Positions 922 through 63,973 of a stretch of 64,000 nucleotides of DNA are shown here, piece by piece (position 1 is the first letter of the stretch; each line of letters starts with the position of its first letter). The notes under the pieces are model-generated. The model had not been told where the DNA came from. It saw only the letters and a program-made list of their open reading frames with translations, and made no database searches. Position numbers and translations under genes: made by a program. The DNA comes from Frigoribacterium sp. Leaf8 (GTDB lineage Bacteria; Actinomycetota; Actinomycetes; Actinomycetales; Microbacteriaceae). Location of the stretch: positions 393,184-457,183 of the forward strand of contig NZ_LMKB01000001.1 of assembly GCF_001421165.1 (NCBI RefSeq), in the 5' to 3' direction.

Positions 922-1062
922 CGGTCCAGCCTGGCCGAGCGCCGTCAGGGACGGGGCCAGCGCCTCCTCGCCTGTGGAGAGGCGCTGGGCGACACCCCCG
1001 AACCGGCGAGACACCCCGAGATCCGCGGGTGTCACGCCGCGCCGGGGGTGTTGCGAGCGCCG

Positions 1063-1611
1063 CTAGTGCAGGGCGCCGACGGAGGCGAGGGCGCTGCGCA
1101 GCAGGGTGCCGCGCCCGCCCTCCATCTCGGCGGCGACCTCGTCGGAGGCGGCCTGGTGCGGCGTCAGCCAGGTGAGCTCGAGGGCGTCCTGCCGCGGGTC
1201 GCACGTGCCCGTGACGGGCACCACGTACGCGAGCGACACCGCGTGCTGACGAGGGTCGGTGTAGACCGACGAACCGGGCAGCGGGAAGTACTCGGCGACC
1301 TGGAACGGCACCGGAGACGGCGGCAGCTGGGGGAAGGCCATCGGCCCCAGGTCTTTCTCGAGGTGGCGGAACAGCGCGGTGCGCAGGCTCTCGCCGTACA
1401 TCACCCGGCCCGACACGAGCATGCGCGAGATCGACCCCTCGTCGGAGGCGCGGAGCAGCACCCCGACCTCGGTCACGACCCCGAGGCCGTCGGTCCGCAC
1501 GGGCACGGCCTCGACGTAGAGGATCGGCAGGTGCTGCCGCGCCTGGAAGAGCTCGTCCTCCGAGAGCCAGCCGGGATTGGGGTCGGGGTCGGGTGTCCGC
1601 ACGGAGCTCAT
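1063..1611 (-). CDS. DUF4916 (NUDIX-like) protein
   Basis: This 182-residue protein matches actinobacterial DUF4916 proteins, which have a NUDIX-like fold. Recognisable stretches are GWLSEDELFQARQHLPI near the N-terminus, VGVLLRASDEGSISRMLVSG in the middle and ESLRTALFRHLEKDLGP where a NUDIX box would be. The canonical GX5EX7REUXEEXGU catalytic signature is not intact, so hydrolase activity is doubtful. ATG 1611 follows TAAGAAT after five bases, compatible with a leaderless start. It is divergent from the esterase gene at 1710. The substrate is unknown. Confidence 0.75.
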   Translation of the reverse strand: MSSVRTPDPDPNPGWLSEDELFQARQHLPILYVEAVPVRTDGLGVVTEVGVLLRASDEGSISRMLVSGRVMYGESLRTALFRHLEKDLGPMAFPQLPPSPVPFQVAEYFPLPGSSVYTDPRQHAVSLAYVVPVTGTCDPRQDALELTWLTPHQAASDEVAAEMEGGRGTLLRSALASVGALH

Positions 1612-1697
1612 GGGCCATTCTTACCGGCTCGGGGGCCCGATCGCGTGACGTGACGCTACGGGCGAACAGCACCGGCCCCGATGTCGGCACCCGTCGC

Positions 1698-1703
1698 TAG
1701 GCT
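1698..1703 (+). promoter_or_regulatory. -10 box of esterase gene, leaderless spacing
   Basis: TAGGCT lies six bases before ATG 1710, with no Shine-Dalgarno between. Transcription would start at or next to the start codon. Confidence 0.5.
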
Positions 1704-1709
1704 CGGCCC

Positions 1710-2423: not shown

Positions 2424-2475
2424 CCACCGGGCCCCACCCGGCCCCGCACCACCCGACGAACGAAGGAGGCGCGCG

Positions 2476-3153
2476 ATGGCGACGCTCTCGGTGTCCGGTT
2501 CCGCCACCCACCGCCACCGTGCCGAGCGCGGCGTCGTCCACCTCGCCGTGGGCTTCGACGGCGACGACCGCGAGGAGGTCGTCCGCGACACCGCCGCGGT
2601 GCACTCCCGCCTCACCGAACAGGCCACTGCCTGGCGCCGCCAGGAGGCCGCCACCTGGTGGAGCGCACAGAGCGTCACGGTCGCGGTCGAGACCGAGGCG
2701 ACGACCGACCGGGGCGACGGGGCCGACGCGACCCGCGCCTCCTCGGTGGTGCGGTTCCGCACCCGGGCCGCCGTCGACGTGCGGTTCAGCGACTTCGACG
2801 CGTTGGCGTCGTGGGTGGGCGACGTCGCCGTCGAACCGGGCGTCACCGTCGAGTGGATCGAGTGGTCGCTCAGCCACGACCGCCGGCCCGAGGTCGAGAA
2901 GGCCGTGCGGGTCGCCGCGATCGCCGACGCGGTCACCCGGGCCGGCGACTACGCCGGGGCGCTCGGGCTCGGTCGGCCGACGCTGCAGTCGGTCTTCGAG
3001 CCGGGGTTGCGGCCCGGCGCGCCCGGTGGGGGCAGCCCGTTCGGCCTGGCCCGTGCCGTCGCGACGTTCTCGTCGGGCGGCCCCGTGACGTTCGACCTGC
3101 ACCCGGACGACATCGAGGTCACCGCCGAGGTCAGCGCCGACTTCGTCGCCTGA
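2476..3153 (+). CDS. SIMPL domain (DUF541) protein
   Basis: This 225-residue protein fits the SIMPL/DUF541 family: it begins MATLSVSGSATHRHRAERGVV, the usual repeated beta-strand opening, and ends with a beta-rich half (VTFDLHPDDIEVTAEVSADF). ATG 2476 was chosen because GGAGG at 2465-2469 sits six bases before it; the frame is open further upstream but lacks such a site. The ribosome site is itself a copy of the dispersed GGAGGCGCG motif. Family members are often exported, but no signal peptide is visible, so this one is probably cytoplasmic. The role is unknown. Confidence 0.8.
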   Translation: MATLSVSGSATHRHRAERGVVHLAVGFDGDDREEVVRDTAAVHSRLTEQATAWRRQEAATWWSAQSVTVAVETEATTDRGDGADATRASSVVRFRTRAAVDVRFSDFDALASWVGDVAVEPGVTVEWIEWSLSHDRRPEVEKAVRVAAIADAVTRAGDYAGALGLGRPTLQSVFEPGLRPGAPGGGSPFGLARAVATFSSGGPVTFDLHPDDIEVTAEVSADFVA

Positions 3154-3225: not shown

Positions 3226-4363
3226 ACAGCAGCCGGTGCCACACTCCCTCGACGCCGATCGGCACGAACCCGACGGCCTCGTTGACCGCGAGCATGGGCC
3301 GGTTCTCCTCGGCGTTGAAGGTCAGCACGGACGGGCGTCCCGGCTTCTCGACGACGAGTCGGTCCAGGTTGGCGACCTTGACGAGCCAGCCCAGCCGGTG
3401 CCCGCGGTGCTCACGCCGCACGAGGGTCATCTGCTGCATGGCGGGCCGCGACGCGTCGTCGGGCACCGCGAGGTCGGAGCACGCGACGAGTCGGCCGGTC
3501 GGCACGTGCTCGGCCGCCGCGGTCAGCGAGGCCCGCCCGCTCGCGGCGCGTCGCTGCTCGGCCTCGACCAGGCGGTCGACGGTCCAGACGTCCTCGGGCT
3601 CCGGCACGTCACCCGTCGGTGCGTCGGTGCTCAACGCGGTCGCCATCGCCGCGACGTCGGACCGCCAGCGCGGAGGCGTGGGGCCGGACCAGGTGTGGAC
3701 GCGGTACTCGTCCCCCGCCGCGGCGAGCGCCTCGGAGCGGATCGCGGCCAGCGCCTCCTCGTCGACCGGCAGGGGCAGGCGGCTGATGCGCTCGACCTGG
3801 CCGAGCGCGTAGCCGCGCGAGAGCGCGAACCGGACCTCCGAGGAGGCGCGGGGCACCCATCCGTGACCGGTCGAGGCCTCGAGGCGGTCGCCCGGGTCGG
3901 GGCGCGAGCCCTGGCCGGACGCGACGAAGGAGATCGCGTCGGTCCTGCCCGCCGCGCGGGCGACGGCCTCGACGTGGTCGAGCAGGGCCGTGCCGAGCCC
4001 CCGGCGGCGGTGCTCGGGGGCGACGGCGACCCAGAGCCAGCAGGTCGTGACGGTCGGGTCGGCGAGCGTCTCGTAGGTGGCCTGTCCGACGATGCGACCA
4101 CCGGACCGCACCACGAACAACCGCCGCGGCGTGAACCGGTCGTGCCACTGCGGCAACTGTTCGGCCGGGCCGAAGTCGAGGTCGCCGAAGCCGAGCACTT
4201 CGGCCTGGACGGCGTTCTCGAGGCCGATGGCCTCGACGTAGGCGGCGACGCGTGCGGCGCGGTTGGGTTCGGCGTCGTGGCCGACATCGGCGTCGGCTCC
4301 GGCGTCGGAACGGGGCTCGAGGGTGTCGGGCACGACGATCTCGTCGATCACGATGTCGGTCAC
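3224..4363 (-). CDS. GNAT family N-acetyltransferase with two GNAT domains
   Basis: This 379-residue protein carries two acetyltransferase folds. The first spans about residues 70-170, with the acetyl-CoA loop in VAVAPEHRRRGLGTALLDHV. The second spans about 240-379, with MTLVRREHRGHRLGWLVK and the C-terminal NRPMLAVNEAVGFVP strand. Tandem GNAT proteins of this length are common in actinobacteria and include mycothiol synthase-like enzymes, but the sequence does not show the substrate. GTG 4363 is preferred because GGAG precedes it by five bases. The first 30 residues are acidic and probably unstructured. Confidence 0.8.
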   Translation of the reverse strand: MTDIVIDEIVVPDTLEPRSDAGADADVGHDAEPNRAARVAAYVEAIGLENAVQAEVLGFGDLDFGPAEQLPQWHDRFTPRRLFVVRSGGRIVGQATYETLADPTVTTCWLWVAVAPEHRRRGLGTALLDHVEAVARAAGRTDAISFVASGQGSRPDPGDRLEASTGHGWVPRASSEVRFALSRGYALGQVERISRLPLPVDEEALAAIRSEALAAAGDEYRVHTWSGPTPPRWRSDVAAMATALSTDAPTGDVPEPEDVWTVDRLVEAEQRRAASGRASLTAAAEHVPTGRLVACSDLAVPDDASRPAMQQMTLVRREHRGHRLGWLVKVANLDRLVVEKPGRPSVLTFNAEENRPMLAVNEAVGFVPIGVEGVWHRLL

Positions 4364-4960: not shown

Positions 4961-4997
4961 GGAGGCGCGGGTCGTCGCCCCCAGGCGCCGCGCCTCC
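4961..4997. terminator. hairpin from an inverted pair of the dispersed motif
   Basis: GGAGGCGCGG (4961-4970) and CCGCGCCTCC (4988-4997) form a perfect 10-bp stem with a 17-base loop just after the DUF1810 gene. There is no T-tract, so an intrinsic terminator role is inferred from position only. Confidence 0.5.
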
Positions 4998-8047: not shown

Positions 8048-8169
8048 GCCCCCGGTGTACGCGGCGGAGCGAGCGTGCCGGCCCAGCTTGTACCCCGGTC
8101 GGGGGTGACGTCGGCGGCGCGGAGCGACGACAGGAACCGAGGAGGCGCGGCACCACCCCCGGGGAAAGA

Positions 8170-8181: not shown

Positions 8182-8754
8182 GTGCCCCTGCTGCCACTGC
8201 CTTCCGAGACTCCCCGTCAGGTCCTGCCCGCCTGGGTGCTGCGCGCCGACCGACGGGCCGCGAAACGCATCAACTCGGTCAGGGGAGTGCCGGTCGTCGA
8301 CCGCAACCTCAGCCGCCTCAGCCACTTCGCCGACCACGGACTGTTGTGGGCCGCGGTCGCCGCAGGACTCGCCCTCGTCGGCCAGCGTCGTGCCGCGGTG
8401 CGGGGCACCCTGTCGCTCGGTTTCGCCAGTGCCATGGCGAACATCGTCGGCAAGCGCATCTTCGGCGGCAACCGGCCCCTGATCGACGACGTCCCGATCG
8501 AGCGACGTCTACGCAGCCAGCCGCTGTCCGCGTCGTTCCCCTCCGGCCACGCGGCCTGTGCCGCCGGCTTCGTGACGGGCGTCGCCATCGAGTCGCCGGG
8601 AGCCGCGGCAGCCTTGTTGCCGCTGGCCGGTGCGGTCTCGTGGTCGCGCCTCCACGTGGGGGCGCACTGGACGTCCGACGTCGTCGGCGGGCTGCTCATC
8701 GGGTCGGGCGTCGCACTGCTGGGCCGACTCGTGTCGGCACCGCGCGGGCGCTGA
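8182..8754 (+). CDS. PAP2 family phosphatase (membrane)
   Basis: The 190-residue protein carries all three PAP2 signature parts: KRIFGGNRP (about residues 93-101), PSGHAA (about 120-125) and SRLHVGAHWTSDVVGG (about 154-169). It dephosphorylates lipid or isoprenoid phosphates such as phosphatidic acid or undecaprenyl diphosphate; the specific substrate cannot be read. Several hydrophobic helices (SLGFASAMANIVG, AALLPLAGAVSW, VVGGLLIGSGVALLG) place it in the membrane. It ends 28 bases from the convergent aldo/keto reductase gene. Confidence 0.88.
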   Translation: MPLLPLPSETPRQVLPAWVLRADRRAAKRINSVRGVPVVDRNLSRLSHFADHGLLWAAVAAGLALVGQRRAAVRGTLSLGFASAMANIVGKRIFGGNRPLIDDVPIERRLRSQPLSASFPSGHAACAAGFVTGVAIESPGAAAALLPLAGAVSWSRLHVGAHWTSDVVGGLLIGSGVALLGRLVSAPRGR

Positions 8755-12086: not shown

Positions 12087-15000
12087 ATGACCGACGTGCT
12101 CGACCGCTTCTCCCCCGCGACCCGTGAGTGGTTCCGGGGGGCGTTCGCCGCGCCGACCCGGGCTCAAGAAGGCGCCTGGACGGCCATCAGCCAGGGCGAC
12201 CACGCCCTCGTCATCGCGCCGACCGGTTCGGGCAAGACGCTCGCGTCGTTCCTCTGGTCGATCGACTCGTTGGCCTCGTCACCCCCGCCCGACGAGAAGC
12301 TGCACCGCACCCGGGTCCTCTACATCTCGCCGCTCAAGGCGCTCGGCGTCGACGTCGAACGCAACCTCCGTTCACCGCTGGTGGGCATCACCCAGACCGC
12401 GAGACGCCTGGGCACCGAGGCTCCCGACATCACGGTGGGCGTGCGCTCCGGCGACACGAGCTCGAGCGACCGCGGCCGTCTCGCCCGCACGCCGACCGAC
12501 ATCCTCATCACGACGCCCGAGTCGCTCTACCTCATGCTCACGTCGCAGGCGCGCGAGACCCTCAAGGGCGTGCAGACGGTCATCATCGACGAGGTCCACG
12601 CCGTCGCCTCGACGAAGCGCGGTGCCCACCTGGCCCTCTCGCTCGAACGCCTCGACGCCCTGCTCGAGAAACCCGCTCAGCGCATCGGGCTCAGCGCGAC
12701 CGTCCGCCCGCCCGAAGAGGTCGCGCGGTTCCTCGCCGGCCCGGCACCGGTCACCATCGTCAACCCCCGCGCCGACAAGAAGTTCGACCTGCGGGTCGTC
12801 GTCCCGGTCGACGACATGACCGAGCTCGGCACCGCCGCCCCACTCGAGGGCTCGGCCGCCGGCGCCGCGCCGCAGGGCTCCATCTGGCCCCACGTCGAAG
12901 AGGGCATCGTCGACCTGATCGCCGCGCACCGCTCGACCATCGTCTTCTCGAACTCACGCCGCCTGGCCGAACGCCTCACGGCCCGCCTCAACGACATCTG
13001 GATCGAACGCCAGGGCGGCGACCTCGAAGCCGCCGAACGTGCCACCGAGGAGGCGCGGGGCCAGCTGGTCACCGCCGGCCCCGTCGGCGACGACGCGGCC
13101 GCCGACGCCGTCGACCCCTTCGCCCCGGCACCCGCCGCACAGCGCAACCCGGCCGTCGGCGGCGGGGCGCCGGCCCAGCTCATGGGCGGTTCGGGGCAGA
13201 CCGCCGGCAGCGATCCCCTGCTCGCCCGGGCCCACCACGGCTCGGTGTCGAAAGACCAACGCGCCCTCATCGAGGACGACCTCAAGAGCGGCCGACTGCG
13301 CTGCGTCGTCGCCACGAGCTCGCTCGAGCTCGGCATCGACATGGGTGCGGTCGACCTGGTCATCCAGGTCGAGTCGCCGCCGTCGGTCGCCAGCGGCCTG
13401 CAACGCGTCGGCCGCGCCGGGCACCAGGTCGGCGAGACCTCCCGCGGCGTCCTGTTCCCCAAGCACCGGGCCGACCTGATCCACTCCGCCGTCGCAGCCG
13501 AGCGCATGGTCGCCGGGCTCATCGAAGAGCTGCGCGTGCCGACCAACCCCCTCGACGTGCTGGCCCAGCAGACCGTCGCGGCCGTCGCCCTCGACGAACT
13601 CGACGCCGACGCCTGGTTCGACACCGTGCGCCGCAGCGCCCCCTTCGCCACCCTGCCGCGCTCCGCCTTCGACGCCACCCTCGACCTGCTCAGCGGCAAG
13701 TACCCCTCCGACGAGTTCGCCGAGCTGCGACCCCGCATCGTCTGGGACCGCGTGCACGGCACCCTGACCGGGCGCCCCGGGGCCCAACGCCTCGCGGTGA
13801 CGAGCGGGGGCACCATCCCCGACCGGGGACTGTTCGGCGTCTTCATGGTCGGCGAGAAGGCCGCCCGCGTCGGCGAACTCGACGAAGAGATGGTCTACGA
13901 GTCGCGGGTCGGCGACGTGTTCGCCCTCGGGGCCACGAGCTGGCGCATCGAGGACATCACGCACGACCGCGTGCTCGTCTCGCCCGCCTACGGCCAGCCC
14001 GGTCGCGTCCCCTTCTGGAAGGGCGACGGCATCGGCCGCCCGGCCGAGCTCGGCAAGGCCATCGGCGGCTACGTCCGCGAGCTGTCGAACTCGAGCGAGG
14101 CCGACGCCACCACGCGCGTCGCCGCCGGTGGGCTCGACGAGCGGGCGGCACGCAACCTCATCGCGTTCCTCGGCGAGCAGAAGGCCGCCACGTCGTACGT
14201 GCCGACCGACACCACCCTCGTGGTCGAGCGCTTCCGCGACGAGCTCGGCGACTGGCGCCTCATCCTGCACTCCCCCTACGGCATGCAGGTGCACGCGCCG
14301 TGGGCACTGGCGGTCTCGGCCCGCATCCGCGACCAGCTCGGGGTCGACGGCGGGGCCATGGCTGCCGACGACGGCATCGTCGTGCGCATCCCCGACACCG
14401 ACGCCGAGCCTCCCGGGGCCGAGCTGTTCTCGTTCGAGCTCGACGACCTCGACGAGATCGTCACCGAAGAGGTCGGCGGCTCCGCCCTGTTCTCGTCACG
14501 CTTCCGCGAGTGCGCCGCCCGGGCCCTGCTGCTGCCCCGGTACAACCCCGGCAAGCGGTCGCCGCTCTGGCAGCAGCGTCAGCGCTCGTCGCAGCTGCTC
14601 GACGTCGCCCGCAAGTACCCGCAGTTCCCGATCGTGCTCGAGGCCGTGCGCGAGGTGCTGCAGGACGTGTACGACCTGCCGGCCCTGATGAGCCTCACCC
14701 GCGACCTCGCCAGCCGCACCGTGCGCATCGTCGAGACCGAGACCGAGGTGCCCTCGCCCTTCGCCCGGTCGCTGCTCTTCGGCTACGTCGCGGCCTTCAT
14801 GTACGAAGGCGACTCGCCGCTCGCCGAGCGTCGTGCGGCCGCCCTGTCGCTCGACTCGAGCCTGTTGCAAGAGCTGCTCGGCCGGGCCGAGCTGCGCGAG
14901 CTGCTCGACGCCGACGTCATCGACCAGCACGAGCTCGAACTGCAGCGCCTCGCCCCCGACCGCCGGGCCCGCGACATCGAGGGCGTCGTCGACCTGTTGC

Positions 15001-18107: not shown

Positions 18108-18818
18108 ATGTCGAACAGCAACCCCACCGACACCCGCAGCACCGCCAGCACCCCCACCACCATCGCCGAGCAGGTGACCGAGTTCAACGAGGGCTTCACC
18201 GCGCAGATCGGCCCCGACTTCTCGAAGGTCTTCGACGACGAGCGGAGCACCCTGCGCGAGGCCGGCGTGCCCGACGACGCCGTGCGACCCGGCGACACCG
18301 TCGTCGAGGCGACGCTGTTGACGCCCCAGGGCACCGAGGTCTCGCTCGCCGAGACCGTCGGCGAGGGGCCCGCCGTGCTCGTCTTCTACCGCGGTGCCTG
18401 GTGCCCCTACTGCAACCTGACGCTGAAGACCTACCAGGCCGAGCTGCTGCCGCGCCTGCGGGAGCGCGGCGTCGCGCTCGTCGCGATCAGCCCGCAGACC
18501 CCCGAGGGCTCCGAGGCGTCGGTGACGAACGGCAGCCTGGAGTTCCCCGTGCTGTCCGACCCGGGCAACGTGCTGAGCGGCGCGCTCGGCATCCGCACCG
18601 AACCGAGCGCCGACGCCCGCACCGTCCACACCCAGCTCGGGTTCGACGTCGCCGACAGCAACGCCGACGCGACGGGCGACATCCCCTTCCCCACCGTGCT
18701 CGTCATCGACCACGACGGGGTCGTCGTCTTCGCCGACGTCCACACCGACTACACGACGCGGACCGAGGTCGACGAGATCGTCGCCGCCCTCGACCTGCTG
18801 GAGGCGCGCGCGGCCTGA
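18108..18818 (+). CDS. AhpC/TSA family peroxiredoxin-like protein, copy 1
   Basis: This 236-residue thioredoxin-fold protein has FYRGAWCPYCNLTLKTYQAE (about residues 88-107), where WCPYC gives two Cys in a CxxC arrangement, and the later strand FPTVLVIDHDGVVVFADVH. It resembles the AhpC/TSA peroxiredoxin-like group that reduces peroxides through the first Cys. AGAGGA precedes ATG 18108 at normal spacing. A paralogue lies at 19570, with the MSMEG_6728-type gene between them on the other strand. Confidence 0.85.
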   Translation: MSNSNPTDTRSTASTPTTIAEQVTEFNEGFTAQIGPDFSKVFDDERSTLREAGVPDDAVRPGDTVVEATLLTPQGTEVSLAETVGEGPAVLVFYRGAWCPYCNLTLKTYQAELLPRLRERGVALVAISPQTPEGSEASVTNGSLEFPVLSDPGNVLSGALGIRTEPSADARTVHTQLGFDVADSNADATGDIPFPTVLVIDHDGVVVFADVHTDYTTRTEVDEIVAALDLLEARAA

Positions 18819-44857: not shown

Positions 44858-44903
44858 GCCGGTCCGTCCTGGGTGCCCTCGCCCGCGCCTCCTCTCGTCC
44901 CCG

Positions 44904-51683: not shown

Positions 51684-52927
51684 GCCGCGCCTCCTGCCCG
51701 GTCGGCGTCGAGGTAGACGTCGTACGCGGCCCCGACGCCGCCCCCGCTCGTGATCGGTGCACCCTCGCGGCGGAGCACGGCCTCGAACGCGGCGAGCGTC
51801 GTGAGCACGGTGTCGCGACGGGCGTTGTAGCCCATCGTGCCGATGCGCCAGACCTTGCCGTGCAGCGGGCCGAACGAGGTGCCGATCTCGATGCCGAAGT
51901 CGGTGAGCAGGGCACCGCGCACCCGGTCGCCGTCGACCCCGTCGGGGATGACCACGGCGACCACGTTGTTCATCTTGTGCGCGAGGTCGCCGAACGTCTC
52001 GAGGCCGAGCCCCTGCACCCCGGCGAGCATGGCGCGGCCGTGCAGCTCGTGTCGTGCCACCACGGCGTCGACTCCCTCGTCGACGACGAGGCGGGCGCAC
52101 TCGCGGGCGCCCCAGAGCATGGTGGTCGCCTCGGTGTGGTGGTTGAGGCGCTGAGGACCCCAGTAGTCGAAGATCATCGCGAGGTCGAAGTAGTTCGACG
52201 CGATGCGTCGGCTGCTGGTCGTGTCGCCGTCGGTGCGGATGCCCGCCTCGATCGACGTGCGGGCCCGGATGACCTCGACCGCCCGTTCGCCGTAGGTGAC
52301 GGGAGACGAGCCCGAGGGGCCGCCGAGGCACTTCTGCAGGCCGGCGCTGACGGCGTCGAGGCCGAGTTCGTCGGTGCGGAAGGCGTTGCCGACGATCGAC
52401 GCCGTGACGTCGGTGTAGAAGAGCACGCCGTGACGGGCGCAGACCTCGCCGAGCCCCTCGAGGGGCTGGGCGACCGTCGTCGAGGTGTCGCCGTGCACGA
52501 CCGCGAGCAGCTTCGGCTGGACGCGCTCGATCGCCTCGACGATGGTCTCGAGCGGGAAGACCTGGCCCCAGGGCACCTCGATGACGTGGACCTCGGCCCC
52601 GCAGCGCTCCGCGATCTCGCGCAGGAGGTGGCCGAAACGACCGAAGACGGGCACGAGCACCTTGTCGCCCGGTTCGATCAACGACACGAGCGAGGCCTCG
52701 ATGCCGGCGCGCGAGGTGCCGTCGACGAGCAGGGTCTGCTCGTTCGAGGTCTGGAACACCTCGCGGTAGAGCGCCTGGGTCTCGTCCATGTAGGCGGTCA
52801 TGGCCGGGTCGTACTGCCCCACGAGCTGCGCCGACATCGCCCGGAGCACCCGGGGATCGGCGTTGATCGGGCCGGGGCCCATCAGGAGGCGGGCGGGCGG
52901 GTCGATCGGCTGGAAGACGCGTTTCAC
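51680..52927 (-). CDS. pucG: (S)-ureidoglycine-glyoxylate aminotransferase type PLP enzyme
   Basis: The 415-residue class V aminotransferase has LMGPGPINADPRVLRAMSAQ at the N-terminus, LVDGTSRAGIEASLVSLIEP, HGDTSTTVAQPLEGLGEVC and the PLP lysine in SAGLQKCLGGPSGSSP. PucG moves the amino group of ureidoglycine to glyoxylate, the step after AllC. Alanine- or serine-glyoxylate aminotransferase is the alternative outside this context. GTG 52927 is preferred over GTG 52978 because TAGGGT stands seven bases before it and homology begins here. Confidence 0.87.
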   Translation of the reverse strand: MKRVFQPIDPPARLLMGPGPINADPRVLRAMSAQLVGQYDPAMTAYMDETQALYREVFQTSNEQTLLVDGTSRAGIEASLVSLIEPGDKVLVPVFGRFGHLLREIAERCGAEVHVIEVPWGQVFPLETIVEAIERVQPKLLAVVHGDTSTTVAQPLEGLGEVCARHGVLFYTDVTASIVGNAFRTDELGLDAVSAGLQKCLGGPSGSSPVTYGERAVEVIRARTSIEAGIRTDGDTTSSRRIASNYFDLAMIFDYWGPQRLNHHTEATTMLWGARECARLVVDEGVDAVVARHELHGRAMLAGVQGLGLETFGDLAHKMNNVVAVVIPDGVDGDRVRGALLTDFGIEIGTSFGPLHGKVWRIGTMGYNARRDTVLTTLAAFEAVLRREGAPITSGGGVGAAYDVYLDADRAGGAA

Positions 52928-52993: not shown

Positions 52994-54652
52994 TCAGGTC
53001 GCCCAGGTCGCCGCGAGATCGAGCAGGGACAAGTCCGCCCCGCGGGGGCCCACGAGGCACAGCCCGACGGGCGCGCTCCGCCCGGAGGCGAGCGGCACCT
53101 CGAGGACCGGCGCCGACACGGCGGGGGCGCCGAGCACGCCGGCGATGCAGGTCAGCCCGAGGGTCGCCGAGCGCACTGCGTCCACCTCGGCAGCGGTCGC
53201 ACCGAGCGCGGGCGCGGCCGAGGACGCGCTGGGCAGGAGCAGCACCCGGCCGTCGAGCAGGGCCTCGAGACGACGACGTTCGTGGCCGAGGGCGACCCGC
53301 GCCTCCTCGGCCTGCCCAGGCGAGACCGTCGCGCCGAACGCGAAGCGGGCCGACACGTCGGCGGCGAGTTCGCCCGGGTGCTCGGTGATCCAGTCGCCGT
53401 CGGACTGCCAGGCCTCGAAGGCCTGCAGCACGCGGAACAGCTCGAAGAGGTGGGCGACGTCGCCCAGCACGACTTCCTCGGGACGCTCGACCCGCCCCGC
53501 GGCGGTCGCCTCGTCGAGAGCCCTCACGAACTCGGCGCGCACGCCGGGCTCGACCGACGCGAGCACCCGCGGATCGACGACGTACGACGGCTCGACCGAC
53601 ATCTGGTCGGCCAGGGGCAGCGACGCCCGGGCCGCCCGACGGAGGGTGTCGACCTCGCGGGTCAGCCAGCCGACCGTGTCGAAGCTCGGCGCGAGCGGGA
53701 GCAGCCCGGCGCGATCGACCGCCCCGTGGGTGGTGCGGATGCCCCAGAGCCCCTGGTAGGACGCGGGCACGCGGAGCGATCCGCCGGTGTCGGTGCCCAG
53801 GGCGATGCTCACCTGCCCGAGGGCCACGGCCGCCGCCGGGCCACTGGTCGAGCCGCCGGGGATCGCACCCGGCACGGCCGGGTTGGGAGGGGTGCCGTAG
53901 GCCGAGTTGCGTCCGGCGATGCTGTACGCGAACTCGTCGGTCTGCGCGATGCCGCGCAGGTCGGCCCCGGCGTCGAGCAGGTGCTGCACCGCGGCCGCGT
54001 GCCGGGACTCGGGGGCCGCACCCGCGAGCCGGGCAGGCACGCCTGCCCCGATCGCGTGGCCTGCGACCGCGAACAAGTCCTTCACGGCGACCGTCTCGCC
54101 CGAGAGGGCAGGAGGCGCCGTGCCGGTCGAGTCGTCCCCTCGGCTTCCCGAGACGAGCGGCTCGCCCACGACCCGCCAGACCCGGCGGTCGATCGCCGGC
54201 GGCGACGCCTGCACCTGGGCCGAGGCGATCCGCCAGGAGCGGGCACCCACCGGACCCGCATCCGGATCGCGGCGCCAGAGCTGCGTGATGACACCACGAC
54301 CCCCGGCGGCCGGGGCGTTGACCGACACGACGATCGCCACGTCGGCGGTGACGACCCGGACGTGGCACTCGACCACCCGTCGGACCGGACCGGACCCGCG
54401 CCTCCCCCGGAAGGCCGTGATCGCGTCGTGCCCCACCAGCAGCCCACCGGCGTCGGCGCGCATGACGGTGGCGGTCGGTTCGAAGGCCGCGGCGAGCGCG
54501 GCCTGGTCGTCGGCGGCGAGTGCGCGTTCGTAGGCGTCGAACGCCTCGAGCAGGCCGTCGGGCAGTTCTCCTTCGACCGAGGTGGGGACGGTGCCCGAGC
54601 CGACCCGTGCCTCCTCGGGGTGGCCCGGCGGTGTACCGGTCGCGTCAGCCAC
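52994..54652 (-). CDS. AtzH-like domain fused to amidase-signature hydrolase
   Basis: The 552-residue protein joins an N-terminal NTF2-like AtzH domain (about residues 33-150; LLEAFDAYERALAADDQAAL, LVGHDAITAFRGRRG) to an amidase domain with catalytic Lys in AVKDLF (about 194), GGSTSGPAAAV and Ser in GTDTGGSLRVPA (about 290). The AtzH family was assigned to decarboxylation of a dicarboxyurea in s-triazine breakdown, and AtzE/AtzF are amidases of the same path, so a ureido or carboxyurea substrate is plausible. GTG 54652 overlaps the formamidase stop by eight bases. Confidence 0.85.
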   Translation of the reverse strand: MADATGTPPGHPEEARVGSGTVPTSVEGELPDGLLEAFDAYERALAADDQAALAAAFEPTATVMRADAGGLLVGHDAITAFRGRRGSGPVRRVVECHVRVVTADVAIVVSVNAPAAGGRGVITQLWRRDPDAGPVGARSWRIASAQVQASPPAIDRRVWRVVGEPLVSGSRGDDSTGTAPPALSGETVAVKDLFAVAGHAIGAGVPARLAGAAPESRHAAAVQHLLDAGADLRGIAQTDEFAYSIAGRNSAYGTPPNPAVPGAIPGGSTSGPAAAVALGQVSIALGTDTGGSLRVPASYQGLWGIRTTHGAVDRAGLLPLAPSFDTVGWLTREVDTLRRAARASLPLADQMSVEPSYVVDPRVLASVEPGVRAEFVRALDEATAAGRVERPEEVVLGDVAHLFELFRVLQAFEAWQSDGDWITEHPGELAADVSARFAFGATVSPGQAEEARVALGHERRRLEALLDGRVLLLPSASSAAPALGATAAEVDAVRSATLGLTCIAGVLGAPAVSAPVLEVPLASGRSAPVGLCLVGPRGADLSLLDLAATWAT

Positions 54653-55903: not shown

Positions 55904-56797
55904 ATGGCGATCATCCTCGGCGACAACCAGTACGGCAAGGCGGAGTCGCGGCTCGTGCGCTTCTACCGCGACGGGCCCCGACACGAGATCCGCGACGTCA
56001 ACGTCACGACGGCACTGCGGGGCCCCTTCGACGCGGCGTACCTCCGCGGCGACCAGAGTGCTGTCCTGCCGACCGACACCCAGAAGAACACTGCGTTCGC
56101 GTTCGCGAAGTCGAAGGGCGTCGAAGCCGTCGAGCGCTTCGGGCTCGAGCTCGCCCGCCACTTCGTCCACGACGTCGAACCCGTGACGGGTGCCCGCATC
56201 GAGATCGAGCAGTACGACTGGCAGCGGGCCGTGGTCGACGGCAGCGAGCACGACCACACCTGGCTGCGTTCGGGTCAAGAGGTGCGCACCGCCGCCGTCA
56301 CGGTCGACGGCACCGGCGAGTACGTCGTGGGCGGGCTGAAAGACCTGGTCCTGCTCAAGTCGACCGGCTCCGAGTTCGCCGGGTTCCTGACCGACGAGTT
56401 CACGACCCTGCCCGAGACGCACGACCGGGTCATGGCGACGGCGCTCGACGCGAAGTGGCGCTTCGGCACGACCGACGTCGACTGGGAGGCCACGTACGCC
56501 GAGGTCAAGCGCCTGATGGTCCGCGAGTTCGCCACCCTGCAGTCGCTCGCCCTGCAGCAGACCCTGTGGCACATGGGCACGGCCGTCCTCGAGGCGATCC
56601 CCTCGATCGTCGAGGTGCGCCTGAAGGCACCGAACAAGCACCACTTCGCCTACGACCTGTCGCCCTTCGGCCTCGAGAACCCGGGCGAGGTCTTCTGGGC
56701 CGCCGATCGCCCGTACGGTCTGATCGAGGCGACCGTGCTGCGCGACGACGCCCCGCCGGCCCACGACGCGTGGCGCGCCTCCGCGGGTCTCGCATGA
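55904..56797 (+). CDS. uaZ: urate oxidase (uricase)
   Basis: The 297-residue cofactor-free oxidase turns urate into 5-hydroxyisourate. It has ILGDNQYGKAESRLVRF with the catalytic Lys near residue 11, VLPTDTQKNTAFAFAK with the partner Thr near 58, and KHHFAYDLSPFGLENPGEVF at the C-terminal active-site loop. The length equals that of single-chain bacterial uricases. GATCAT six bases before ATG 55904 fits a leaderless start. The guanine deaminase gene follows on the same transcript. Confidence 0.94.
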   Translation: MAIILGDNQYGKAESRLVRFYRDGPRHEIRDVNVTTALRGPFDAAYLRGDQSAVLPTDTQKNTAFAFAKSKGVEAVERFGLELARHFVHDVEPVTGARIEIEQYDWQRAVVDGSEHDHTWLRSGQEVRTAAVTVDGTGEYVVGGLKDLVLLKSTGSEFAGFLTDEFTTLPETHDRVMATALDAKWRFGTTDVDWEATYAEVKRLMVREFATLQSLALQQTLWHMGTAVLEAIPSIVEVRLKAPNKHHFAYDLSPFGLENPGEVFWAADRPYGLIEATVLRDDAPPAHDAWRASAGLA

Positions 56798-58227: not shown

Positions 58228-58319
58228 GCGACGGTGCCCCGAGGCGACGGGCACGGCTGGCCGACCCGCGCCTCCCGGGCGTCCGGCGACGCGGCACCCG
58301 GGCGCGCCGGGCCGGGTGG

Positions 58320-58604: not shown

Positions 58605-59537
58605 ATGGACCTGACCACCGTTCGCGAGATCCGCACCCCGTCACGCCGCGACGAGATGGTCTTCGCGCCCGGCGAGCGGCCCCTCGGCGGTGGCACGTGG
58701 CTGTTCTCGGAGCGGCAGCCCGGGCTGACCGGCCTGGTCGATCTGACCTCGCTCGGGTGGACGCCGGTCGAGCGCGGCATCGCCGCCGACGGCCGCGACG
58801 TCGTCAGCGTCGCCGCCACCTGCACCATCGCCGAGCTGCTGCGGCTGCCCGCCGACGCCGACTGGGTCGCCCACCCGCTCGTCGACCAGTGCGCGAACTC
58901 GCTGCTCGCCTCGTTCAAGATCTGGAACGTCGCGACGGTCGGCGGCAACGTCGCCCTCGGGCTGCCTGCCGGGGCCATGACGTCGCTCATGGCCACGCTC
59001 GACGCCACGGCCGTCGTCTGGACGACCGACGGGGGCGAGCGCCGCCAGCCCGTGTCCTCCTTCGTGACCGGAGTGGTGCAGAACACCCTCGAGCAGGGTG
59101 AGGTGCTGCGCACCCTCGAGGTGCCGCTCGGGTCCCTGCGCTCCCGTACCGGGTTCCGGCGCATCTCGCTGAGCCCCCTGGGCCGCTCGGGCACGCTGGT
59201 CACGGCCCGGCTCGGCCTCGACGGCGAGTTCGTGGTCACGATCACGGCGGGGACGACCCGTCCCGTCCAGCTGCGCTTCGACGAGGTGCCCGGCGAGCGG
59301 GCCCTGGCGGACGCTCTCGGCCGCATCGACTGCTGGTACTCCGACCCCCACGGCGACCCCGACTGGCGCCGCGCGATGAGCGCCCGCTTCGCCGACGAGT
59401 TGCGCGTCGAGCTCGGACGACCCGCCACCGACGCGCCGGCGCGACCCGTGCGCGAGTCGACCCACGACCCGCGCAGCGCGGCCGCCCGCGCGAGGCGGAC
59501 GCCGCCCACCACCACGACCCCCGGAGGCGCGCGATGA
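58605..59537 (+). CDS. xdhB: xanthine dehydrogenase FAD-binding subunit
   Basis: The 310-residue subunit has the FAD-loop motif LGGGTWL near residue 27, LLASFKIWNVATVGGNVALG (about 102-121) and AGAMTSLMATLDATAVVWT, as in CO-dehydrogenase/XDH flavoprotein subunits. It passes electrons from the molybdenum site to NAD+. The C-terminal 40 residues are Arg/Ala/Thr-rich. Its stop overlaps the next gene by four bases, as expected for one enzyme complex. Confidence 0.87.
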   Translation: MDLTTVREIRTPSRRDEMVFAPGERPLGGGTWLFSERQPGLTGLVDLTSLGWTPVERGIAADGRDVVSVAATCTIAELLRLPADADWVAHPLVDQCANSLLASFKIWNVATVGGNVALGLPAGAMTSLMATLDATAVVWTTDGGERRQPVSSFVTGVVQNTLEQGEVLRTLEVPLGSLRSRTGFRRISLSPLGRSGTLVTARLGLDGEFVVTITAGTTRPVQLRFDEVPGERALADALGRIDCWYSDPHGDPDWRRAMSARFADELRVELGRPATDAPARPVRESTHDPRSAAARARRTPPTTTTPGGAR

Positions 59538-62305
59538 CCCCGAGACACGTCACGTTCGAGGTCGACGGCCTCCCGCTCGACGCCGACGTCGACCCCGGCC
59601 AGGTGCTGCGGACGGTGCTGCGCGAGCACGGCGTCCACTCGGTCAAGAAGGGCTGCGACGCGGGCGACTGCGGCGCGTGCTCGGTGCTGGTCGACGGCGA
59701 GCCCGTGCACTCGTGCATCTATCCCGCGCACCGGCTCGAGGGCCGGGCCGTGACGACGGCGGCCGGCCTCGGCACCCCCGAGCACCCCCACCCCGTGCAG
59801 CAGGCGTTCGCGGACGCGGCCGGGTTCCAGTGCGGCTTCTGCACGGCCGGCATGGTGGTGACGGCCTCGACGTTCACCGAGGCCGACGCGGACGACCTCC
59901 CGCGCCTCCTGAAGGGCAACCTGTGCCGGTGCACGGGGTACCGGGCGATCGGCGACGCGATCTGCGGCGTCTCGAACACGGTGGCCCCGGCCGACGGCGA
60001 GGCGGCCGGTCGGTCGGTGAAGGCCCCGGCGGCCCTGCGCGTGGCGTCCGGCAGCGAGCCGTACACGCTCGACTTCCGCAGCACGACGAAGCTGCTGCAC
60101 CTCGCCGTGCTCGGCAGCCCGCACCCCCACGCCCGCATCACCTCGATCGACACGAGTGCCGCCGAGGCGCTGCCCGGCGTGCACCTGGTGTTGACCCACC
60201 GCGACTCCCCCGCGACGTTGTTCTCGACCGGTCGCCACGAGGACCGCGAGGACGACCCGGACGACGGCCTGGTCCTCGACCCCGTGCTGCGGTTCCGAGG
60301 GCAGCGCGTCGCCGCGGTCGTCGCGGACGACGTCCGCACGGCGACGAACGCCCTGGCCGCGATCGTGGTCGAGTACGAACCGTTGCCCGCCGTGTTCGAC
60401 CCCGAGACGGCGCGCTCCCCCGGGGCACCGCTGCTGCACGGCGAGAAGACCGTCGAGGCGTCGCGCATCGCGTTCCCCGAGCGCAACACCGTGGCCGCGA
60501 TGCACGACGAGACGGGCGACGTCGAGGCCGGCCTGGCGCAGGCCGACGCCGTCGTCGAGGGCACCTGGCGCACGCAGCGCGTCTCGCACGGCGCGCTCGA
60601 GACGCACGCCTCGCGCGGCTGGCTCGACGACGACGGGCGCCTCGTCGTCCGCACGGCGAGCCAGGTGCCGTTCCTCGTGCGGGACGAGCTGGCCCACGTC
60701 TTCGGGCTGCCGCAGGAGCAGGTCCGGGTCTTCGCCGCCCGCGTGGGCGGCGGTTTCGGAGGCAAGCAAGAGCTCATCACCGAAGACCTCGTCGCCCTCG
60801 CCGTGCTGCGCACCGGTCGACCCGTGCAGTACGAGTTCACCCGCGAGGACGAGTTCACGATCGCGCCGACCCGCCACCCGATGCGCGTCCGCGTGCGCGT
60901 CGGCGCGACGAGCGACGGGGTGCTGACCGCGCTGCACGTCGACCAGCTGATGGACACGGGCGCCTACGGCAACCACGGCGTCGGCGTGATGTACCACTCG
61001 GTGCACGAGTCGACGAGCGTCTACCGCTGTCCGAACAAGCGCGTGGACGCCGAGTCGGTCTACACGAACAACCTGCCCTCGGGGGCGTTCCGCGGGTACG
61101 GGCTGGGGCAGGTCGTCTTCGCCGTCGAGTCCGCGATGGACGAACTGGCCCGCGAGCTCGGCATCGACCCGTTCGAGCTGCGCCGCCGCAACGTGATCGT
61201 CCCCGGCGACCCGATGGTGGTCACCGACCCCGACGAGGAGAGCGATCTGCTGATCGGCAGCTACGGACTCGACCAGTGCCTCGACCTGGTCGAGCAGGCG
61301 CTGGAGTCCCCTGCCCCCGAAGGCGCGCCTCCTGCCCCCGTCGGCCCGACCTGGGTCACCGGGCGCGGCATGGCGCTGGCCATGATCGCCACGATCCCGC
61401 CACGCGGTCACTTCGCCGACACCTCGATCGAGCTGCTGTCCGACGGCCGCTACGACATCGGCGTCGGCACGGCCGAGTTCGGCAACGGGACGACGACCGT
61501 GCACACCCAGCTCGTGGCCTCGGCGCTCGGCACCACGCCCGACCGGGTCGTCGTCCGGCAGTCCGACACCGACGTGGCCCGGTACGACACGGGCGCGTAC
61601 GGGTCGGCCGGCGTCGTCGTCGCCGGCAAGGCCCTGCTCGCCGCCGCCCACAAGCTACGAGCGGCGATGGTCGACCGCGCGCTGGCGATCGCCGGAGGCG
61701 CGGGTCACGCCGTCGACACCGGCACCGCCCCCGAGGTGGTCGCGGGCGGCGTCGTGGTGCGGGTCGGCCCCGGTGTCGACGCGACCGTCCTGGTGTCCGG
61801 CGACCGGCTGCTGGCCGACGGTCCGCTCACCGCCGACGGTTCCCACGACGGCACCCCACGCTCGGTGGCGTTCAACGTGCACGGCTTCGAGGTCGCCGTC
61901 GACCGGGCGAGCGGCGAGGTGCGCCTGCTGCGCTCGGTGCAGGCGGCGGACGCCGGCGTCGTGCTGAACCCCGAGCAGTTGCGGGGGCAGGTCGAGGGCG
62001 GCACGGCGCAGGCGATCGGCACGGCCCTTTACGAAGAGATGATGCTCGACGACGAGGGTCGCGTGCTGACGACGGCGTTCCGCAACTACCGGATGCCCAA
62101 GTTCGGGGACGTGCCCCAGACCGAGGTGCACTTCGCGACCACGCACGACGACCTCGGTCCGCTCGGCGCCAAGTCGATGAGCGAGGCGCCGTACAACCCG
62201 GTGGCACCCGCCCTGGCCAACGCGATCCGCGACGCCCTCGGCGTGCGGCCCCACGAACTGCCGATGTCGCGCGACCGCCTCTGGCGCCTCGCCGGCGGTC
62301 GCTGA
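59534..62305 (+). CDS. xdhA: xanthine dehydrogenase, 2Fe-2S and molybdopterin domains fused
   Basis: The 923-residue protein joins a two-cluster 2Fe-2S domain (about residues 1-155; GCDAGDCGACSVL, FQCGFCTAGM, NLCRCTGYRAIG) to the molybdopterin domain (about 165-923; RVGGGFGGKQ, NLPSGAFRGYGLGQ, and the active-site Glu in GAKSMSEAPYNP). With the separate FAD subunit this gives the small/large fusion seen in selenate-type and PucCDE-like XDHs of some bacteria. It oxidises hypoxanthine and xanthine to urate. A dispersed-motif copy overlaps its ribosome site (GGAGG, 59523-59527). Confidence 0.9.
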   Translation: MTPRHVTFEVDGLPLDADVDPGQVLRTVLREHGVHSVKKGCDAGDCGACSVLVDGEPVHSCIYPAHRLEGRAVTTAAGLGTPEHPHPVQQAFADAAGFQCGFCTAGMVVTASTFTEADADDLPRLLKGNLCRCTGYRAIGDAICGVSNTVAPADGEAAGRSVKAPAALRVASGSEPYTLDFRSTTKLLHLAVLGSPHPHARITSIDTSAAEALPGVHLVLTHRDSPATLFSTGRHEDREDDPDDGLVLDPVLRFRGQRVAAVVADDVRTATNALAAIVVEYEPLPAVFDPETARSPGAPLLHGEKTVEASRIAFPERNTVAAMHDETGDVEAGLAQADAVVEGTWRTQRVSHGALETHASRGWLDDDGRLVVRTASQVPFLVRDELAHVFGLPQEQVRVFAARVGGGFGGKQELITEDLVALAVLRTGRPVQYEFTREDEFTIAPTRHPMRVRVRVGATSDGVLTALHVDQLMDTGAYGNHGVGVMYHSVHESTSVYRCPNKRVDAESVYTNNLPSGAFRGYGLGQVVFAVESAMDELARELGIDPFELRRRNVIVPGDPMVVTDPDEESDLLIGSYGLDQCLDLVEQALESPAPEGAPPAPVGPTWVTGRGMALAMIATIPPRGHFADTSIELLSDGRYDIGVGTAEFGNGTTTVHTQLVASALGTTPDRVVVRQSDTDVARYDTGAYGSAGVVVAGKALLAAAHKLRAAMVDRALAIAGGAGHAVDTGTAPEVVAGGVVVRVGPGVDATVLVSGDRLLADGPLTADGSHDGTPRSVAFNVHGFEVAVDRASGEVRLLRSVQAADAGVVLNPEQLRGQVEGGTAQAIGTALYEEMMLDDEGRVLTTAFRNYRMPKFGDVPQTEVHFATTHDDLGPLGAKSMSEAPYNPVAPALANAIRDALGVRPHELPMSRDRLWRLAGGR

Positions 62306-62362
62306 GCCGGGCAGAGCGGGGCGGGCCGGGCCCGGGCCGGGCCGGCCCGGCCCGGACCACGA

Positions 62363-62428
62363 GTCGCACCACCGAATGAACGTCGCACCGCCGACATGCG
62401 CGGCGCGACGTCCAGTCGACGGTGCGAC
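62363..62428. repeat. family B intergenic palindrome, third copy
   Basis: GTCGCACC (62363-62370) matches GGTGCGAC (62421-62428), with an inner imperfect stem around TGAACGTCGCACCGCCG (62377-62393). Convergent genes flank it. On both sides the sequence is a GGGCC-rich low-complexity stretch (62317-62360 and 62440-62518) without a gene. Confidence 0.82.
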
Positions 62429-62518
62429 GCGAGCGCGGGCTGGGCCCGGGCCAGCCCGCGGTCGGGCCCAGCCCGGCGGCCAGGTCCAGCCCCCGGGCCC
62501 GGCCAGCCCGGGCCCGGC

Positions 62519-63973
62519 TCAGCCCTCGCGCTCGGTCGCGCCGGCCGGTGCCGCGGGCCCGCGCACGGCGTCGTGCGCCGACACGTCACGGTCCGCACCC
62601 TCGTCGCGCGCCTGCATCCGCGGCGAGTTGAGCAGCAGGTTCAGCAGCACGGCGACGATCGCGCCGGCGCTGATGCCCGAGTCGAAGACGATCGTGAACC
62701 AGGTCGGGAACTGCGCGTAGATCTCGGGGCTGACCGTCGGCAGCAGGCTCACGCCCAGCGCGACCGCCACGATCAGGATGTTCGAGTTCGTGAACCGCAC
62801 CTTCGACAGCGTCCGGATGCCGCTCGCCGCGACCATGCCGAACAGCGCGACGCCCGCCCCGCCGAGCACCGCCACGGGCACGCCCTCGACGACGGCCCCG
62901 AGCGCGGGCACCAACCCGAGCACCACGAGGATGCCCCCCGCCAGCGTCGCCACGTACCGCGACTTCACGCCGGTGATGCTGACCAGGCCGACGTTCTGCG
63001 CGAACGCGGTGTACGGGAACGTGTTGAAGACGCCGCCGATGACGGTCGACAGGCCGTCGGCCCGCAGCCCGTCGGCCAGTCGTCGCGGCGTCACCGGGCG
63101 GTCGACGATCTCGCCCACCGCGATGATGTCGCCGGTGGTCTCGGTCATGATCACCAGGCCGACGATGCACATCGACACGATCGCGCTCACCGGGAAGGTC
63201 GGCAGTCCGAAGTGGAACGGCAGGGCGAGCCCGAACCAGGCGCTCTCGCCCACTCCGCTCCAGTCGGTCAGCCCGAACGGCCAGGCGACGAGGGTGCCGA
63301 CGACGAGCCCCAGCAGGATCGACAGGCGGCGGAGCGCAGGAGGCGCGAACCGCTCGATGAGGATGATCAGCAGCAGGGTGCCCGCGGCGAAGGCGACGTC
63401 GAGCGGGCGTCCGAAGTCGTCGGAACCCGCGCCTCCTCCGACCCAGCCGGCGGCGACGTCCATCAGCGAGACGCCGATGATCAGGATGACCGTGCCCGTG
63501 ACGATCGGCGGGAAGAACCGCACCAGCTTCGAGAAGAACGGGGCGAGCAGCATCATGAAGACGCCGCTCGCGATGACCGAGCCGTAGATGGCCGTGATGC
63601 CGTACTCGCCACCGATCACGATCATCGGTCCGACGGCGGCGAAGGTGCAGCCCTGCATCAGGGGCAGCCGCACCCCGAAGCGCCAGAACCCGACGGACTG
63701 CACGATCGTCGCGATGCCGGCCACGAACAGGTCGGCGCTGATCAGGTAGGCGATGTCGCCGGGCTCGAGCTGGCCCATGCCGACCAGCGCTCCGCCGACG
63801 ATGAGGGGCACGGCGACCGCCCCGGCGTACATCGCGAGCACGTGCTGCAGGCCGAGTGGGAAGAGCCTCCGCAGCGGGGGGACGCGGTCGACGGGGTGTG
63901 TCGTCTCGGGCGGCCCGGCGGTCGCGACCGGGGAAGCGGGCGGCTCGGGTGACTCGGGCGAGGACTGTGACAT
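62519..63973 (-). CDS. NCS2 family purine (xanthine/uric acid) permease
   Basis: The 484-residue transporter has about 14 helices and the NCS2 motifs LFPLGLQHVLAMYAGAVAVP at the start, ETTGDIIAVGE with the substrate-binding Glu and GVFNTFPYTAFAQNVGLVSI with the NxG element. The neighbourhood and the QNVG form point to xanthine or urate rather than uracil. AGGAG stands five bases before ATG 63973. Both termini are cytoplasmic and disordered. Bases 63974-64000 show no further gene. Confidence 0.88.
   Translation of the reverse strand: MSQSSPESPEPPASPVATAGPPETTHPVDRVPPLRRLFPLGLQHVLAMYAGAVAVPLIVGGALVGMGQLEPGDIAYLISADLFVAGIATIVQSVGFWRFGVRLPLMQGCTFAAVGPMIVIGGEYGITAIYGSVIASGVFMMLLAPFFSKLVRFFPPIVTGTVILIIGVSLMDVAAGWVGGGAGSDDFGRPLDVAFAAGTLLLIILIERFAPPALRRLSILLGLVVGTLVAWPFGLTDWSGVGESAWFGLALPFHFGLPTFPVSAIVSMCIVGLVIMTETTGDIIAVGEIVDRPVTPRRLADGLRADGLSTVIGGVFNTFPYTAFAQNVGLVSITGVKSRYVATLAGGILVVLGLVPALGAVVEGVPVAVLGGAGVALFGMVAASGIRTLSKVRFTNSNILIVAVALGVSLLPTVSPEIYAQFPTWFTIVFDSGISAGAIVAVLLNLLLNSPRMQARDEGADRDVSAHDAVRGPAAPAGATEREG

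Follow-up and report, generated by a model that had tools for sequence, protein, structure and literature searches.

Short words by which a bacterium recognizes DNA of its own kind for uptake are known from two families. The passages of PMC3630211 on the DNA uptake sequence (DUS) of the Neisseriaceae describe a short non-palindromic word with hundreds to thousands of copies, genic as well as intergenic, with inverted pairs at likely terminators and related variants across lineages. The same features characterize the motif reported here, a dispersed word in a 64,000-nt stretch of an actinobacterial genome (the window, C1:393184-457183 of a 3.33-Mb source genome in 12 contigs). It differs from the DUS, which has the receptor ComP, in its sequence, in its monoderm, high-GC host and in that PilB/PilT-type genes are missing from 3 of the 16 genomes of the window's genus. 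With the uptake signal sequence (USS) of the Pasteurellaceae the motif shares a 9-bp core with weaker flanks, but it lacks the extended AT-rich flank and the intragenic gene-terminus bias, which is reported for the Pasteurellaceae only and is not significant in Neisseria (PMC2346458). For Haemophilus influenzae, the USS passages of PMC1939737 give 1471 copies, 65% in open reading frames and ~10% in inverted repeats, evenly spaced and without orientation bias, and state that most uptake sequences have no bias to sites downstream of genes; in our source-genome sample, 42 of 292 copies (~1 in 7) belong to inverted pairs, against the ~10% quoted there. Within the Actinobacteria, the competence passages of PMC4322843 and PMC6370729 report ComEA, ComEC and Tad-type genes for Micrococcus luteus, as found here. 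The type IV pilus cluster present in the window's genome is apparently absent there, and PMC4322843 does not use the term "uptake sequence" in its main text, nor are uptake sequences mentioned in the examined passages of PMC12236230. Among the literature matches listed for the letters of the motif and for uptake sequences of Actinobacteria, including Micrococcus, Curtobacterium and Clavibacter, the titles and abstract openings contain no recognizable description of the motif.

We propose that the motif is a putative DUS-like self-recognition signal. We give this reading about an even chance, because most points, though not all, match published uptake sequences and an intracellular architectural protein is a serious rival. 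The original prediction, made from the letters of the window, had likened the motif to the uptake signals of Neisseria and Pasteurellaceae; density, coding share, lack of polarity, even spacing and inverted pairs bear out that likeness, while the uptake function itself stays putative. The window's group belongs to neither of the two families in which such tags are known, and if Gram-positive Actinobacteria have a motif of similar genomic behaviour, self-tagged uptake would seem to have originated no fewer than three times. Even with an intracellular reader, a chromosome signal of ~700 sites per Mb, conserved and sharply specific, would be unexplained and testable.

Abundance and base specificity of the word

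The window contains 14 copies of the full 12-mer against a shuffle mean of 0.24 (maximum 2 over 100 shuffles), 40 copies of the 10-mer core against 1.96 (maximum 7), and 54 copies of the 9-mer CGCGCCTCC. Each of the 14 predicted 12-mers was found where it had been placed. The predicted core positions are likewise correct; the total of 39 is not, the copy at 1444 (-) having been overlooked. The copies are as follows, with genic and intergenic assigned from gene calls of a codon-model script made for the present analysis.

1444..1452, minus: 9-mer core CGCGCCTCC, genic; same in 5/5 compared genomes
2465..2473, minus: 9-mer core, intergenic; same in 5/5 compared genomes
2731..2742, plus: full 12-mer, genic; 9-mer same in 5/5 compared genomes
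3842..3850, minus: 9-mer core, genic
4961..4997: 37-bp hairpin (inverted pair) of a 12-mer at 4961-4972 (-) and a core at 4988-4997 (+), z -2.4; in a codirectional gap, starting 45 bp past the called gene 4490-4915
8141..8149, minus: 9-mer core, intergenic
8645..8653, plus: 9-mer core, genic
13049..13057, minus: 9-mer core, genic (Lhr-like helicase)
15199..15207, plus: 9-mer core, genic
16659..16670, plus: full 12-mer, genic
16707..16715, minus: 9-mer core, genic
18800..18808, minus: 9-mer core, genic
20269..20353: intergenic array of 9-mers at 20270, 20289, 20308 and 20327 (+), 19-bp period, and at 20345 (-); in four sister species some of it is gapped or does not align
22202..22210, minus: 9-mer core, intergenic
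22392..22400, plus: 9-mer core, intergenic
24895..24906, minus: full 12-mer, intergenic
25035..25043, plus: 9-mer core, genic
26268..26276, minus: 9-mer core, genic
27973..27981, minus: 9-mer core, genic
28755..28792: 38-bp hairpin (inverted pair) in a codirectional gap, core at 28755-28764 (-) and 12-mer at 28781-28792 (+), z -4.3
32123..32134, minus: full 12-mer, intergenic
34731..34739, plus: 9-mer core, genic
37233..37241, plus: 9-mer core, genic (G6PD)
37474..37482, plus: 9-mer core, genic (G6PD)
38327..38335, plus: 9-mer core, genic (G6PD)
38773..38781, minus: 9-mer core, intergenic
40278..40286, plus: 9-mer core, intergenic
41485..41496, plus: full 12-mer, intergenic
41805..41813, minus: 9-mer core, intergenic
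43119..43127, plus: 9-mer core, intergenic
44884..44892, plus: 9-mer core, intergenic
46465..46473, minus: 9-mer core, genic
47181..47189, plus: 9-mer core, genic
49036..49047, plus: full 12-mer, genic
50050..50061, minus: full 12-mer, genic
50323..50331, plus: 9-mer core, genic
50690..50698, minus: 9-mer core, genic
51686..51694, plus: 9-mer core, genic
53295..53306, plus: full 12-mer, genic
54394..54405, plus: full 12-mer, genic; altered in 5/5 compared genomes, likely a recent gain
56774..56782, plus: 9-mer core, genic
58264..58275, plus: full 12-mer, intergenic
59523..59531, minus: 9-mer core, genic
59901..59909, plus: 9-mer core, genic (XdhA-like)
61324..61332, plus: 9-mer core, genic
61694..61705, minus: full 12-mer, genic
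63339..63347, minus: 9-mer core, genic
63425..63436, plus: full 12-mer, genic

Like the DUS and USS, the word is over-represented genome-wide and on both strands. The whole source genome holds 528 12-mers (275 forward, 253 reverse; 3 for the reversed control) and 1422 copies of the 10-mer CGCGCCTCCT (13 for the reversed control), and the density of CGCGCCTCC in the source-genome sample is ~700 per Mb. In 384 kb of the source genome, from which the stretches L012 and L015 were excluded as in all codon and Markov counts, the 10-mer is 42.6-fold above an order-4 Markov expectation. In these 384 kb the motif thus survives the Markov count that the original prediction had set as its test, and it is not confined to the window, as shown by the 528 genomic 12-mers and by the enrichment in 14/14 other genus genomes. 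A simple GC effect is ruled out by the reversed controls and Markov expectations.

The logo from 412 kb of the source genome reads [AC][AC]C-CGCGCCTCC-T, with the trailing T in 68% of the copies. In a substitution scan of the same 384 kb, CCGCGCCTCCT was counted 162 times versus 1.5 expected; a single change at any of the 9-mer positions 1-8 (0-based) left between 0 and 8 copies, in many cases none and never more than 7.4 times the expectation, and changes were tolerated (up to 22-fold) at position 0, at the preceding C and at the final T. The 10-mer with one mismatch is 1.67-fold enriched, and with two mismatches 0.90-fold. After the core, the window's clade has T, Curtobacterium has A or C, and the genome G007 prefers C, a difference between lineages that is reminiscent of uptake-sequence dialects. 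G007 (samples L173-L177) also has a second over-represented word, CTGCTGGTA/TACCAGCAG, at 16 copies per 100 kb versus 0.9 expected, and ATCCCCTAT occurs 10 times versus 0.1 expected in the source-genome sample L001-L018 plus the window.

Conservation and placement

The window was aligned with four sister genomes at 89-93% identity, over 54-59 kb. Respectively 36/41, 40/48, 38/46 and 35/41 of the ungapped 9-mer sites are unchanged (83-88%), versus 50, 28, 37 and 35% of control 9-mers of equal GC (Fisher p 7e-7 to 3e-15), rates that exclude 13, 6, 8 and 13 gapped or unaligned sites of the 54. In a same-species genome 46/47 sites are unchanged versus 90% of controls, which is not significant (p 0.08). 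Mismatch is ~3% across the core and rises in the flanks to 10% in genes and 14% in intergenic regions (five array copies excluded from the intergenic profile), and at wobble-position A/T none of 40 comparisons changed within the motif versus 62% outside. Genic and intergenic copies are conserved alike (85 and 84%). Synonymous-codon shuffling predicts 29.9 +/- 5.0 copies where 167 are observed (5.6-fold), and as the reversed control falls below this null (6 observed versus 25 expected), the null is generous if anything. A protein-level or codon origin is thereby ruled out. Together, the conservation above control 9-mers and the excess over the synonymous-codon null indicate that selection acts on the DNA word, in line with the DNA-level selection or spread that the original prediction had argued from differing reading frames within genes; among 340 called genes, RAS (49), GGA (37), EEAR (10) and PRLL (10) are the commonest readings. 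Placement in and between genes, in several frames and with DNA-level selection, is shared with the DUS and USS. A short, fixed, conserved and genus-wide word could also be the recognition site of an orphan methyltransferase or defence system common to the genus, similar to HIP1. We regard this as very unlikely, as methylation alone does not explain strong enrichment plus base-level conservation, and HIP1 is palindromic, whereas the motif is not.

Copies are gained and lost mostly by point substitution. For 173/180 ungapped copies of four relatives, the window has the word with 0-1 mismatches rather than an empty site; exceptions are the array at 20269-20353 and a few gapped intergenic sites. 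At 68-77% identity (9 genomes, one locus), 7/35 site comparisons are unchanged (controls 8%), and each of these loci carries 4-7 copies of its own, so that positions turn over and local copies persist. This bears on a mobile palindrome of the repetitive extragenic palindrome type (REP/REPIN), spread by a RAYT transposase and leaving solitary half-sites as debris. Such elements are dispersed short palindromes, mostly between genes, and palindromes of recurring length are indeed dispersed here (37 and 30 bp in the window's genus; 32 bp in Curtobacterium and in G045, a genome from another genus of the family). However, the motif is mostly solitary, 126/215 copies are genic and conserved rather than decaying, the relatives' copies do not face empty sites, and no RAYT was found, with Y1_Tnp (REP/RAYT transposase) in 0/15 genus genomes searched. 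REP/RAYT mobility is rejected because no such transposase was found in the 15 genus genomes and because copies turn over by point substitution, leaving the REP explanation hardly credible, and the same two results disfavour the proliferating micro-repeat that had been offered as an alternative to uptake.

In 312 kb without N (N-containing loci excluded), 126 of 215 9-mers are genic (59%; 528 per Mb) and 89 intergenic (1218 per Mb), versus 13 and 27 per Mb for the reversed control. Genic copies lean to the sense strand (99 versus 69, p 0.025). Codirectional gaps hold 63 copies in 29.7 kb, convergent gaps 41 in 16.4 kb and divergent gaps 16 in 20.5 kb. Inverted pairs at gene ends, as in the DUS and USS, had been predicted, and 19 of the 21 pairs in the 312 kb sit between called genes. 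The stem of the 37-bp hairpins covaries (24 cells versus 13.6; 13 copies); the 9-bp arms are invariant in the hairpin sets, but copies were selected by those arms. It could be asked if the word is primarily the arm of a transcription-terminator or mRNA 3'-end hairpin, with solitary copies as by-products. In favour of this are the covarying stems, the denser codirectional and convergent gaps, the position of codirectional-gap copies nearer the upstream gene's 3' end (45 versus 18, p 0.0009) and the intergenic location of most sampled Curtobacterium copies (87/129). Nonetheless we consider it improbable, given that inverted pairs hold just 42 of 292 copies, that the genic copies lie in both orientations and are conserved as strongly as intergenic ones, and that a scan for T-run terminators in window positions 1-20000 gave 6 sites without the sole inverted pair there, T-less terminators being beyond the reach of the scan.

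Strand bias along the replichores, a test suggested by the original prediction, was counted in 20 stretches of 20 kb from the same-species complete genome G099, with dnaA at 384 kb and the terminus assumed opposite. No replichore polarity was found in these 400 kb (leading 138, lagging 120, p 0.29). Three stretches near the presumed terminus hold 4, 0 and 3 copies, which tells little because they belong to the four stretches of lowest GC. Copies are spaced more evenly than random in two contiguous stretches (P 0.014 and 0.017, after copies lying within 100 bp of each other had been merged). Some low-GC stretches are nearly empty, with 1 copy in L012 (GC 0.61) and 0 in L073 (GC 0.66), where the average is ~14 per 20 kb, and the 7.7-kb contig C2 has 0; L013 (GC 0.67) still holds 13. 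This scarcity is weak evidence, because lower GC alone cuts the expectation. L012 (C1:520001-540000) is an island encoding RHS, Schlafen and DEAD helicase proteins. A non-palindromic, GC-rich, over-represented word that is scarce in low-GC islands also resembles a Chi-like recombination hotspot for an enzyme of the RecBCD/AdnAB type. Against this stand the missing replication orientation bias, the habit of forming inverted pairs and arrays, and an excess of 42.6-fold, larger than is known for Chi, and we hold it to be decidedly improbable; a polar Chi or KOPS-like (FtsK-orienting polar sequence) signal, and with it the polar form of the predicted segregation or Chi-like alternative, is disfavoured by the lack of replichore polarity. 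In sum, the pattern fits a terminator, Chi site or REP element less well than an uptake sequence, because most copies are solitary and over half genic, polarity is missing, and no transposase was found, respectively.

Distribution among relatives and the Curtobacterium form

The comparison with sister species that the original prediction had called for shows enrichment in every same-genus genome searched, the 14 others carrying 178-632 12-mers each. Of the same-family genomes from other genera, 44 have 0-9 and G045 has 63; 39 same-order genomes have 0-11. Across 398 family genomes, CGCGCCTCCT is high (513-1422) in 10/10 genus members drawn, the source genome included, and near control elsewhere, save in G108 (216 versus 75), G215 (90 versus 46) and G022 (52 versus 14). 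The 9-mer was followed up in these exceptions, with 27 copies in 120 kb of G108 (control 92 per Mb), 20 in 80 kb of G215, 12 of them genic (6 times control), and 3 in 60 kb of G022 (control 0). The CGCGCCTCCT pattern would overlook Curtobacterium, because its core is mostly followed by A or C; the core CCGCGCCTCC occurs 425-928 times in four named Curtobacterium genomes versus 66-122 for the control, and is below control in nine other relatives. The window's genus is distinct from Curtobacterium judging by the identity of a 526-bp segment to the window, which is 87-99% in 13 genus genomes (one of the same species), 78-80% in two named Curtobacterium records and 75-78% in six other relatives; for a third Curtobacterium record the alignment spans just 200 bp, and two of the loci from the genus leave the segment uncovered. 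The Lhr protein is ~71% identical to its Curtobacterium counterpart.

The two genera differ in where the word is found. In 14 samples of the window's genus, genic density ranges from 260 to 617 per Mb and exceeds control 3.7- to 28-fold (zero control copies in one sample), whereas three Curtobacterium samples have 24, 7 and 11 genic copies versus 13, 7 and 3 for the control (1.0 to 3.7 fold). In Curtobacterium 52 of the 129 copies lie in hairpins, and 50 of the 87 intergenic ones serve as hairpin arms (28/45, 16/25 and 6/17), mostly with a 32-bp core; the G045 stretches, and partly those of G443, were picked around listed matches, so their hairpin share is biased upward. A dispersed ~48-bp palindrome whose 9-bp arms are constant and whose outer and inner stems covary was noted in Curtobacterium (L222-L230, L234-L241) and G045 (L210-L213). 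Over 25 copies, taken from G045 and from two genomes of Curtobacterium, 91.5% of cells are paired and 40 cells are altered on both sides versus 20 in shuffles; the number of pairs with a double change, 7, is no higher than in shuffles (139/500 reach 7). This palindrome has the identical 9-bp arms and a covarying stem in common with the window's motif, and is different in its near-control genic count, its mainly intergenic location and its usual A or C after the core. That Curtobacterium holds the same core mainly between genes suggests that the word started as part of a hairpin or protein-bound palindrome. Curtobacterium, with mainly intergenic copies, and the window's genus, with copies genome-wide, would form a genus pair for asking how such systems start.

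The core common to the Curtobacterium palindromes also speaks for the serious rival, a site for an intracellular sequence-specific protein (a nucleoid organizer, repair or segregation factor) needed every 1-2 kb, the hairpins being paired sites. Even spacing, near all-or-none specificity at the core positions, equal conservation in and between genes, and arrays with about two helical turns between copies (20269-20353 and L221) are all consistent with it. On the other hand, replichore polarity is missing, copy number differs several-fold among sister species (178-632), and ~700 sites per Mb would be more than is usual for known segregation sites; overall, we judge such a site to be rather unlikely.

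Competence genes and the reading as an uptake signal

Read as an uptake signal, the motif would be a double-stranded DNA word with the core CCGCGCCTCC, to which the window's clade usually adds T, and would be read genome-wide by a sequence-specific protein. A competence filament, either the Tad/Flp pilus or a type IV pilus, would bind kin DNA fragments that contain the word and hand them to ComEA and ComEC, and transformation would in this way keep restoring and spreading intact copies. A surface protein would presumably bind the motif and binding would increase uptake, and the reader may sit on the Tad pilus and not on the type IV pilus, given that PilB/PilT-type genes are missing from three motif-rich species. 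Where copies are paired near gene ends, they may double as transcription terminators, as proposed for Neisseria. It is possible, although we put it forward tentatively, that sequence-specific DNA uptake has evolved a third time, independently, and that this is its first case in a monoderm high-GC bacterium, with a word grown from the intergenic hairpin arm still dominant in Curtobacterium and read by a Tad or type IV competence filament; if so, the birth of an uptake-sequence system would be visible in comparative genomes.

The com and pil genes that the original prediction had proposed to look for were found in all or most of the genus genomes. ComEA (16/16), ComEC (15/15) and DprA (16/16, interrupted in 2) are present genus-wide, and in the source genome a ComEA with SLBB and HhH domains adjoins ComEC. 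A third T2SSE-family ATPase, found in 16/16 genus genomes, is called Tad-type because T2SSF, DUF4244 and weak matches to TadE/Tad accompany it in the source genome. Of the 16 genomes, 13 have PilB- plus PilT-like ATPases. The source-genome pil cluster, ~66 kb before the window and beside rpoC, encodes PilM, a prepilin peptidase, three pilins with an N-methylation motif, T2SSF and two T2SSE. What these genes lack is discriminating power: ComEC occurs in 94/99 relatives and is thus near-universal in the order, so that competence genes do not explain the presence of the genic motif in this genus.

Besides this near-universality, several results weigh against an uptake function. PilB/PilT-type genes are missing from G002, G003 and G006 among the 16 genomes searched, yet these have 488-616 12-mers, so the motif does not correlate with such genes. 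TadE reaches E 0.001 in 9/15 genus genomes (one under the curated cut-off); this value was not reached in G000, G002, G003 and G006, and the TadE-like gene of the source genome both misses it and scores under the cut-off. Single-change variants at core positions 1-8 are enriched little or not (0-7.4 fold), a gene-terminus bias looked for inside genes was not seen (quintiles flat), and Curtobacterium copies are mainly intergenic or in hairpins, with the origin that this suggests. Divergence around the sites shows no clear recombination footprint; within the species it drops from 1.48% over the closest 250 bp to 0.77% at 750-1000 bp and climbs again beyond. Tandem arrays, at 20269-20353 and L221 2064-2116, are unusual among known uptake sequences. 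Finally, the lean of codirectional-gap copies to the upstream 3' end counts in the same direction, because PMC1939737 reports no downstream bias for most uptake sequences.

Candidate receptors are the three pilins with N-methylation motif (L247), the Tad-type small pilins (L248) and ComEA (L221). The L221 array is the second intergenic tandem array, with a 22-bp period (L221:2064-2116). On the same locus (source-genome contig C5), a single 1161-aa open frame, L221:8699-12184, comprises ComEC and a DNA polymerase III delta C-terminal domain, and open frames around ComEC are likewise long in other genus members (911-1993 aa). In G006 (C1:170167-188922) and G011 (C1:603800-622942), dprA is in two pieces ~18 kb apart, as if an element had inserted into the competence gene.

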